DNA of 64,000 nucleotides from Phaffia rhodozyma (Eukaryota > Basidiomycota > Tremellomycetes > Cystofilobasidiales > Mrakiaceae), in contig JACGZH010000003.1 of assembly GCA_014706385.1 (NCBI GenBank), positions 1,133,501 through 1,197,500 on the forward strand, given 5' to 3'. Made by a program: the position numbers and the translations under genes. Below, one piece after another: positions 1,389 through 8,682 of the stretch; position 1 is the first letter of the stretch; each line of letters starts with the position of its first letter. The notes under the pieces are model-generated. The model had not been told where the DNA came from. It ran no database searches and was given only the letters and a program-made list of their open reading frames with translations.

Positions 1389-4300
1389 TTAGTACGCCGT
1401 CGAGGGAGCATCGACAGGTTGGCAGCTCGTCTATTTCAACCCGCACAAGAATTAAGCGAACCCAAAAAGACAGACCACCATTCAACATTCAGGAAAAGAA
1501 CAGAATCGATATCATGTGTAGGTATATGAACGTACAGTTTTGTTGATAGAGCATTTTATATGAACGACTTGTTTACAGTCGTCACAACACATGAACGGTC
1601 TAGAAGGCTTTACTTTCTGATGAATACCAAATCCCAAAATCATCAGCAGATAACTCCAAAAACAGTTAGTTCGAATGGGGACAGGGGGAAAATAAAGGTG
1701 CGAGGAGGCAACGAACAATCTTGCAAACTCCACATTTGAGCTTTCCGGCATGTCCGCCTTCTGTAACGGCGCCCAATCTACTCGAATCAAAGGTTGTACT
1801 TCCTGCGCTTGACAAGCCACTTCCCATCGATCCTGCCAGACCGTTCGAGAACCAGTTGCCCCATCCGATCAGCCCTGTCACGGGCGCGATCTTTCCGTTC
1901 AAGCTTGGTTTGATCAACGTGAACCGATGGGTCATTGTTGATTTCTTTTGCACTTGAGTCTGGCCTTGTGCTGAGTGTGGTTTAGATCCTGAAGTTGAAC
2001 TAGTAGAAGGTCGTCCATGAGAGTCGAGTTGTCGAACACGAGCAAGCAGATCTACCGCCCGGATCTTGGATGGATACGTTTCTGAAATAGACGTAGGCAC
2101 ATCAGGAGGTGAAAAGGCATCGGATTCGATCGAGGGAGTAAACGCGTAGCCTCTTGTAGGGGAGGCATGCACAGGGGGAGGGGAGGCCGCTTGGTCAACT
2201 AGATGCGCAGCCTCAACGGGAGGAGGTGTGATTGGAATTTCACTAGGTATGTTGATCAAGCTCGTCAGCTTTGGATCCACCGTTATTCGTTCACGAATAG
2301 TCAACGTAGAACCCGATTCATGATTTTCCCAGGCTGGGGTCGATGATCGAGGCAGGATGATGGTAGCTGTGTTATTCTCGTCTAGGTCAGGACCATCAAA
2401 CTGGAATGAAAGGTTGGAGGGAACTGAAGGAGTGTAGATCGCTACATCGGAGAGCAAGTGTTGATAACCTGCAAGTTCTGAAAACTATCATTAACTACGT
2501 TCCTTTTTCCTTTTGAGGCAGACCAGGAAAAAGAAACGAACCCATTGTTTCATTCGCATCCTCGTAGACCGATGGATTACCACCTTCCTTCCCTTCATCA
2601 TCTCCAACAATTCTCGGCACAACCGGGTCATTTCCCCACTTGGCTTTTTTCCGCGCGCCCCCTTCTCTTACTTTCTCTCCGTCAATAATGTCGTGTGCGT
2701 TATCTTTCGGTCTGAGATGATCGCGTCCCAGATCTTTCAAGATGTCCTTCAAATTTTCTTGATCCATATCCCCGTCTTCATCTTCCGTCGAACCGTCCTC
2801 CTCGCGTCCAGCTCTTTGCGTGCGTGAAGTACTCGGCTTATGTCCGGACGAAGTAGAGTGTTTAAGTTCTTTCCCGATCTCTTGACCGAAGGAAGGAATT
2901 CGTTTGTTCGCATTTGACTTGTGTCTAGGTACAAGTTTCAGAGAACCAACGTGCTCGACTTCCTTCTCTCTGGAGAGGACATCAAGCTCAATCACACGGA
3001 GTCTACGGAGAACTTCTTCCATCTTGGGTCGACATTTTGGCTAATGTAGAAGAGTTCAAAACTGAGTGCGCGCTCTTCCCATAAATATAATAGATAGTGG
3101 TAAGTCTGTACTCACCTCTACAGTTGCACATTCCAAGGCAAGATCGATGAATGCCTCCGGACATCCAGGCGAAGCCAGATCTCTGACTTCATCAATGTCC
3201 AACTCGAATGTCGGCATAGTTCGCTTGAATGTGTTGCTGTCTACTAATCGACGAGACAAAATTTCGCAGAACTGGGGGACAAGACACGGATGATCGTTTG
3301 TAAATCATAAACTGCGCTCATGATAAAATAGAAAAGAGAGACTAAAGACGTACGATGATCCCTAGAGAGTATCTATTGAACTCGGTATATCAGGAAAAAA
3401 TATCAGCCAAAAGGTATCCTCTAAGCGCAAAATGAAAAGAAAGATCCCTACACGTCTGTGGGCAGGTCAAATCTAGCTCCCATTAAGATCTCAGGGGACT
3501 ATCAAAGAAGAAAGGTTTCGTAGAAGTGAGTTGTCGAGCATGTTTGTCCGCCTGCAGTCTCTCAAAGCATTGAAAAGGGCGTACCATCTGATTTTGTGTA
3601 TCAGCCAAAACATCAGATCCACATCAGTCAAGACCACAAAGTACGTGTACGTATAAATTAAATCAGAAAGAATGCAGCGATGAGACACGAGGACCAGTTT
3701 TCGACTTACGTAGCCGTCTGTTCCACAATAACTCATTCTCTTCATTTCATCCTCATTTCTCGCTACTATTCTTGCAAAACCTGATTGTGAAAGTATAGAC
3801 GTTTGGTGAGCATATTCATCAGAGGAATATGAAAGCAACACAAGTTACGTTCAGCTTTTCACTTTGCTGGCTGACTACATGACGAGACAGACTCAAGAGA
3901 CGAACCGAAATCGGTCATTTTGATCCGCTTGTTTGCAGTTATCAAAAGGTTCTCTCCTTTCAGATCCCGATGTATGCACTACAAAGTAGAGATGAGCACA
4001 ACATGGATTAAGAATTTCATCAGGATCAGCTAGTCATCTCGGGCATGCAGGAGAGAACAATCAAGTCTGACCTTTCGAGCGTGTAGATAGGCGAGCGCCC
4101 TGGCTATATCGGTAGCGAAGCTGATCCGAAGCCTCCATGGAAAATCAGGGTATGTGCGCTTGTCCCAGATGTAAGATCGAAGGTTGCCTTTATTCATAGA
4201 CCACAGATCAGATAGCCCGGCCAGGGCATGAAGGACAGAAAGAAAAAGAGCAGAAAAAGATAGTGGAGTGATACTGACCGTTCTCGATACATTCAGAGAT

Positions 4301-5110
4301 GATACTATAACCAAGAGCGCGAAAGGAAAAGAATGGAAGCCAACCTCAGTACACCAAGTAACGTAGAGAAGGCCACAACATCAGGGCCAGAATAGATATC
4401 AGGCAAACGAACAAAGTCCGACCGTCCGGAGGCGGAGCTCTCGACAAGCCCAAATACTGACGTTTCAACAACGAATCCGATGTTAGTGAGTGCGTTTAGT
4501 CCAAGGCGAATGATAGATGTTGTATGACGATGAACCAACCTGCACAACATTTGGGTGCCTTGCTTCTCTGTAAGAGGCTTGACGGATCATGAACACCGAC
4601 TGGTCAACAAGTCCAATCTTCGGAGATTCTCTTCCTGATTCGTCTTATCCTATTCCCTTCTTTGAAATCTACGGACGAACCTCATAATCCTCCACTCTCT
4701 TTCAAAGTACTTGGCAACTTCATAATCGGTCAAAGGCAGGACCTGGAACACCAGATCGAAACGTCAGCTAAGGAAACCCTTCCTGTTTATAGGAAAAGAT
4801 TGTGGAACCGGCAAAAGGTCCGATGGACCAACCTCTTTGATGGCGATATCAACTCCCAAGTATGTGCCTGTTGGCCAAGTGTACACGAGATTCGAGGCGA
4901 TCGGTTTTGTTATGAGATAATTTCGAATATCCGAAGGTTAGGAAGAAACCAAGAGGGGCTACGAAAACAAGCAGACAAGCCATCTGCATCTACGAGAACT
5001 TCACACATGGCTGTCCTTGACCACATACCTCTGAAGACTACTCCGAAACTACCCTGACCGAGTTTTTCTCCCCATATGATTTGGTCGTAAGGAATAGCGT
5101 CCCATTCCAT
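1389..5110 (-). CDS. TKL-type (LIMK-like) protein kinase with C-terminal C1-like zinc finger
   Basis: Predicted Ser/Thr or dual-specificity kinase, 714 aa from 17 exons: 5029-5110, 4833-4867, 4681-4742, 4540-4567, 4413-4456, 4279-4304, 4072-4187, 3906-3978, 3710-3780, 3585-3587, 3452-3498, 3354-3372, 3116-3271, 2542-3040, 1717-2477, 1536-1616, 1389-1430 (2145 nt). Seen after splicing: glycine loop GQGSFGVVFRG, Lys in DIAIKEV, RHPNVVQYLGL, catalytic HRDLKGEN, DFG, P+1 loop CGTDGYMSPE and subdomain XI RPKMEEVLRRL. The kinase domain covers about residues 8-285. A long Ser/Pro-rich linker follows, and the last about 45 residues give CGVC...CDDCKQVVHIKC then Cys after 7 residues, the C-x2-C-x4-H-x2-C-x7-C pattern of C1 fingers; the usual leading His is not obvious. 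The 3-nt exon and the two 3' introns are the least certain parts. Confidence 0.88.

Positions 5111-6512: not shown

Positions 6513-8682
<2,170 letters not shown>

Follow-up and report, generated by a model that had tools for sequence, protein, structure and literature searches.

Micro-exons as short as, or shorter than, the one considered here have been described outside the fungi. The portions available of the respective sources report a 3-bp micro-exon of human RPS24, documented by junction reads and capillary electrophoresis (PMC11162997), as well as ultra-short plant micro-exons, including ones of 1 nt, for example in APC11 and VPS55, which were verified with RNA (PMC8831610). For basidiomycetes, the accessible parts of the literature give larger values: the shortest cDNA-defined exons of bglA in basidiomycete yeasts measure 5 bp (Sirobasidium magnum) and 6 bp (Rhodotorula minuta) (PMC9142197), and the shortest of the P450 micro-exons of Phanerochaete chrysosporium measures 6 bp (PMC1184071).

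We analyzed a candidate exon consisting of a single ATG codon in a kinase gene of Phaffia rhodozyma, located in a 64-kb window (the whole stretch of DNA analyzed, 64,000 nt). With a micro-exon defined as a spliceosomal exon of at most 30 nt between two spliceosomal introns, the candidate, judged from the DNA alone, is 3 nt long and bordered by GT-AG introns on both sides. As far as the partially available sources allow comparison, it resembles the RPS24 exon in its 3-nt length and its internal position between introns, but the latter is alternatively spliced and vertebrate, whereas the Phaffia exon is apparently constitutive and fungal and encodes a conserved kinase residue. With the plant micro-exons it shares its ultra-short size, its omission from annotation and the need for it in a conserved protein, although the plant exons are shorter and RNA-verified, whereas the Phaffia exon is known here from genomic sequence. 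Like the bglA genes, it belongs to a basidiomycete yeast and combines many short introns with an ultra-short exon; the bglA exons, however, are of 5-6 nt, lie in a different gene and were defined by cDNA comparison. The P450 genes of P. chrysosporium are a further basidiomycete case of micro-exons, in a family whose introns are small, but those exons are of at least 6 bp and belong to another family. No 3-nt fungal exon was reported in the open-access PubMed Central literature on fungal or Phaffia micro-exons and splicing, as far as its partial coverage extends, and none this short appeared in the available parts of PMC3990503, PMC13149111, PMC8042270, PMC8022950 and PMC11121469; the Phaffia exon is possibly the shortest on record for fungi. 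A preliminary description of the locus considered exons of this size very rare; rare they are, but examples of 3 nt in human and 1 nt in plants were already known.

Structure of the kinase gene and the candidate exon

The candidate lies in a gene on the minus strand (1389..5110) modelled with 17 exons and a 2136-nt coding sequence including the stop codon, the frame of which is open throughout and yields a 711-aa product; all 16 introns are GT-AG and span 73-161 nt. The kinase domain occupies the N-terminus of the model protein and a weak C1-like zinc motif its C-terminus. The best PDB match is LIMK1 (E 2.8e-43), with LIMK1 and LIMK2 structures at the top, and Pfam searches with the full protein returned PF07714 at 164.8 bits and PF00069 (Pkinase) at 162.0 bits. 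Among the best 120 of 1538 protein matches, several orthologs bear the name TKL/LISK/LISK-DD1 and most carry PF00130 as a C-terminal C1-like zinc domain; the C-terminal motif of the Phaffia protein scored 22.2-22.5 bits for C1_2 (cut-off 26), 14.0-18.5 bits for C1_1 (cut-off 26.5) and 23.2 bits for PHD (cut-off 24). The gene product is, as judged from these matches, a LIM-kinase-like TKL/LISK-DD1 kinase. A search of the Phaffia genome assembly (19.8 Mb, 15 contigs) recovered possible kinase paralogs, the matched stretches of which are at most 44% identical to the model protein, and the 64-kb window gave no Rfam match at gathering thresholds.

Exon 9 (3710..3780, minus strand, as are all features of this gene; 71 nt) ends in C-G-T-D-G-Y, with GGC TAC closing at 3710, and exon 11 (3452..3498, 47 nt) opens at 3498 with TCCCCTGAG, where TCC CCT GAG begins S-P-E-I-L-M-G; both flanking ends agree with those proposed in the preliminary description. 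Between them lie intron 9 (3588..3709, 122 nt, GTAAGT...TCAG), exon 10 (3585..3587, ATG, encoding Met180 of the model protein) and intron 10 (3499..3584, 86 nt, GTACGC...ATAG), so that the ATG is immediately preceded by acaaaatcag and followed by gtacgccc. The two intron sizes given earlier were correct, whereas the total is 211 nt (122+3+86) and not 216. Exon 12 (3354..3372, 19 nt, Y-S-L-G-I-I) is a second micro-exon.

The undivided interval had also been called unusually long for an intron. This is true relative to the median of 91 nt for the 27 introns modelled in the kinase gene and in a plus-strand neighbor (6513-8608, 5' part modelled), which we take to be PRMT1-like, but the first intron of that neighbor is 214 nt, and intron length was therefore dropped as an argument. 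Across the kinase gene and the PRMT1-like gene without its 3' end, 5 of 29 exons are at most 30 nt (3, 19, 26, 26 and 28 nt, with the second exon of the neighbor being one of 26 nt), and very short exons are therefore part of the local landscape. According to the available part of a genome study, Phaffia has 7.5 introns per gene with an average length of 111 nt and, together with other Cystofilobasidiales, exceeds the rest of the fungi compared there in introns per gene (PMC5103461).

The splice sites bordering the ATG are only middling in strength, which counts against the exon: with a matrix built from the other introns of the kinase gene, the intron-10 donor ranks 14th and the intron-9 acceptor 11th of 16. 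The PRMT1-like gene uses the same GTACGC donor for its intron 8. Branch-like CTGAT motifs start 40, 29 and 17 nt from the 3' end of intron 9, and a CTCAC motif starts 32 nt from that of intron 10; because a CTNAY motif within the last 60 nt is also present in 9 of the 14 other introns, hence in 11 of the 16 introns of the gene, these motifs are weak evidence. A recursive splicing site, that is, a zero-length exon with AG directly before GT, is ruled out by the 3 nt separating the AG from the GT.

For the segment spanning exons 9 to 11, we listed every way of removing one or two GT/GC...AG introns, each no shorter than 40 nt, and kept those with products retaining CGTDG...PEILMG. A single one-intron solution was obtained, with GYSPE as the product and the frame kept, along with two two-intron solutions, one GT-AG/GT-AG, yielding GYMSPE, and the other using a GC donor, yielding GYTSPE. 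Accordingly, the ATG at 3587-3585 is the sole GT-AG solution restoring G-Y-M-S-P-E, in agreement with the earlier claim that nothing else supplies the Met; the gene structure and the uniqueness of this canonical solution are direct observations, and no alternative exon with a Met codon emerged. The GC-donor exon, ACT, was rejected: Thr occurs in 0 of 263 listed matches with a contiguous motif, and the acceptor reads AGAG.

Chance occurrence was assessed with 20,000 dinucleotide-preserving shuffles of the 211-nt interval, with the ends fixed and at least 50 nt required on each side. Any AG-N3-GT appeared in 11.9% of the shuffles, AG-ATG-GT in 0.39%, and YAG-ATG-GTDNG in 0.015% (3/20,000); a chance 3-nt candidate is not rare, but one encoding the expected residue is. 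With both strands counted, the 64-kb window contains 15 instances of AGATGGT and a single YAGATGGTDNG, the one at exon 10. An internal AG-N3-GT with 50 nt on each side was found in none of the 25 other modelled introns, just 7 of which are long enough (at least 103 nt) to hold one.

Conservation of the methionine and apparent introns in relatives

A Met or similar residue had been expected between G-Y and S-P-E, and the family bears this out. Y-M-S-P-E is present in all 119 matches other than the Phaffia deposit among the best 120 of 1538. A further 164 proteins comprised 119 new ones from the best 120 of 439 matches and all 45 of another search; 144 of these are contiguous over the site, with Met in 141, Val in 2 and Leu in 1, and the other 20 include four with Met in an altered motif (CGTDGYMSPSI in three, GADSYMPPEN in one), P0278, where Met stands between insertions, and 15 that do not read across. 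Human LIMK1 has Met at the equivalent position (WMAPE). Deletion of the Met from the model protein lowers the Pkinase score from 162.0 to 151.3 bits and that of PF07714 just from 164.8 to 161.3 bits. The conservation is directly observed, and the residue encoded by exon 10 is, by comparison with these proteins, a near-invariant kinase Met. In the related kinase fragments P0261, P0262 and P0263, which read GYMSPSI in place of GYMSPEI, the APE glutamate is lost while HRD and DFG are kept.

Among the relatives, P0278, a fungal fragment 88% identical to the Phaffia protein in the shared segment, appears to have introns at the same place. It is known here from the protein translation of contigs, and intron positions were read back by codon logic; its translation runs ...MSYCGT-GEQSRISRTTAPELINFPFA-DGYM-VHPRLATLVLFFLTIVAISSQ-SPEILTGAEFDLPTDVFSLGII..., the frame seemingly passing through the introns, and its Pfam kinase score is 19.3 bits, below the cut-off of 31.7. 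Of its two intron-like insertions, one falls precisely at Met|Ser; the other precedes the upstream site of Phaffia by 8 nt. By this logic, the upstream intron would be of about 60 nt and interrupt the Asp codon between its first and second bases, whereas the downstream one would be of 63 nt and begin right after Met in phase 0, so that the middle exon at the equivalent site seems to be 11 nt long. The Met|Ser intron is thus probably common to Phaffia and P0278, while the position of the upstream intron differs, that of P0278 being 8 nt earlier. The region is uninterrupted in the P0267 fragment, and P0272 and P0277, inspected by eye, have an apparent intron after Asp and none after Met. The pattern across relatives would fit introns having been gained or lost repeatedly within a short stretch. 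This apparent 11-nt exon of P0278 is a natural comparison for the origin of micro-exons by intron placement. When prokaryote genome contigs were scanned with P0278 for contaminant fungal DNA, 64 pattern matches came up, none of them a relative.

As a separate observation, made by eye, the open frames of P0269, P0271, P0272, P0274 and P0277 enter apparent introns directly after CGTD (CGTD-VS...), so that in other fungi an intron seems to lie two codons before the Tyr|Met intron of Phaffia.

The deposited protein and competing explanations

A deposited Phaffia rhodozyma protein, P0001, is identical to the model protein residue for residue except at two differently spliced places, a match that identifies the source as P. 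rhodozyma (Tremellomycetes, Cystofilobasidiales) or a strain nearly identical to it. At the first of these, exon 9 is joined to exon 12 in another frame, with exons 10 and 11 skipped, and the splice from exon 12 enters exon 13 internally, with 3240 as the first base; the resulting GTDGY-ILSRDHH-SNTFKRT was reproduced here. Seven residues, ILSRDHH, thereby replace 34 (MSPEIL to RRLVD), with S-P-E among those lost, and the Pfam scores are 125.0 bits for PF07714 (vs 164.8) and 114.2 bits for PF00069 (vs 162.0). At the second place (window positions 2542-2441), P0001 is without GYQHLLSDV, the first base after the acceptor being 2441 rather than 2468; because the ortholog P0010 has a stretch, GHQRLLEE, that by eye resembles GYQHLLSDV, the earlier acceptor (2468) is probably right. 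The first departure most likely reflects faulty gene prediction, and the likeliest cause would be the missed micro-exon, an error of a kind described as pervasive in plant annotation in the available part of PMC8831610.

We consider it highly probable, from the sequence comparisons, that the ATG is a real 3-nt kinase exon, probably constitutive, that arose from closely spaced introns and is spliced stepwise by intron definition. That the true mRNA instead joins exon 9 to exon 12, as in P0001, might be argued from the match of this protein to the model elsewhere, but the other frame of exon 12, the 7 residues in place of 34 with the drop in Pfam scores, the presence of the motif in every one of the 119 remaining orthologs among the best 120 of 1538 matches, and the loss of GYQHLLSDV where P0010 keeps a like stretch make this extremely improbable. 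We also regard as quite unlikely, although a little less so, that there is no exon and that a single 211-nt intron is removed, leaving the Phaffia kinase without one residue (G-Y-S-P-E). The frame would be kept, the 214-nt intron of the neighboring gene means that length is no objection, and the PF07714 score without Met (161.3 vs 164.8 bits) is still high; yet those same 119 orthologs all have the residue, the 144 later contiguous matches have Met, Val or Leu there, the chance of an ATG that has both splice signals and enough space on either side would be 0.015-0.4%, and the apparent intron of P0278 begins right after the same Met.

Another explanation retains the exon as real but has it alternatively spliced, with inclusion giving the active kinase and skipping giving a product one residue shorter, probably impaired and invisible to NMD. 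Skipping of exon 10 leaves the frame unchanged (G-Y-S-P-E), whereas retention of intron 9 or intron 10 shifts the frame and leads to a stop in exon 11, and both splice sites next to the ATG, the intron-10 donor and the intron-9 acceptor, rank low among those of the gene. Weak sites are, however, common in this gene and the alternative isoform is only hypothetical, and we hold this explanation to be improbable, if less so than the two preceding ones; because it shares the real exon with the preferred explanation, their odds overlap and need not sum to one. Among the matches listed in the protein searches (best 120 of 1538, best 120 of 439 and all 45), there was no Phaffia fragment or transcript-derived protein across the junction, a point against the preferred explanation.

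Proposed splicing and significance

Under the preferred explanation of a real, constitutive exon, exon 10 would supply Met180 in G-Y-M-S-P-E, ahead of the kinase P+1 region, and would most likely be included constitutively. Its most likely origin is the placement of two introns with just three nucleotides between them, in a lineage that is extremely rich in introns. The preliminary description held such an exon hard to explain by exon definition, but this is no real obstacle: short introns, here with a median of 91 nt, can be recognized across the intron, which is the expected mode for introns of this kind. The intron-9 acceptor and the intron-10 donor, only 3 nt apart, are probably not occupied simultaneously; in a two-step removal, excision of the first intron would leave an ordinary exon edge for the second. 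Because both flanking introns are of normal size, stepwise intron definition would account for exon 10. We infer splicing in vivo, constitutive inclusion, the order of removal and the evolutionary path from the gene structure and the comparison with relatives.

A broader proposal, namely, that this is the shortest fungal exon observed so far, that a hidden class of such exons is widespread in Cystofilobasidiales and that exon 10 may serve as an NMD-proof, frame-neutral kinase switch, appears improbable to us as a whole. If true, that class would consist of ultra-short exons derived from closely spaced introns and invisible to current annotation. An exon of 3 nt probes how small an exon can be and still be spliced in a short-intron fungus, and the case of exon 10 illustrates how a gene model loses an essential kinase motif. 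The gene models of Phaffia, which are used in astaxanthin engineering, may hold more such errors.
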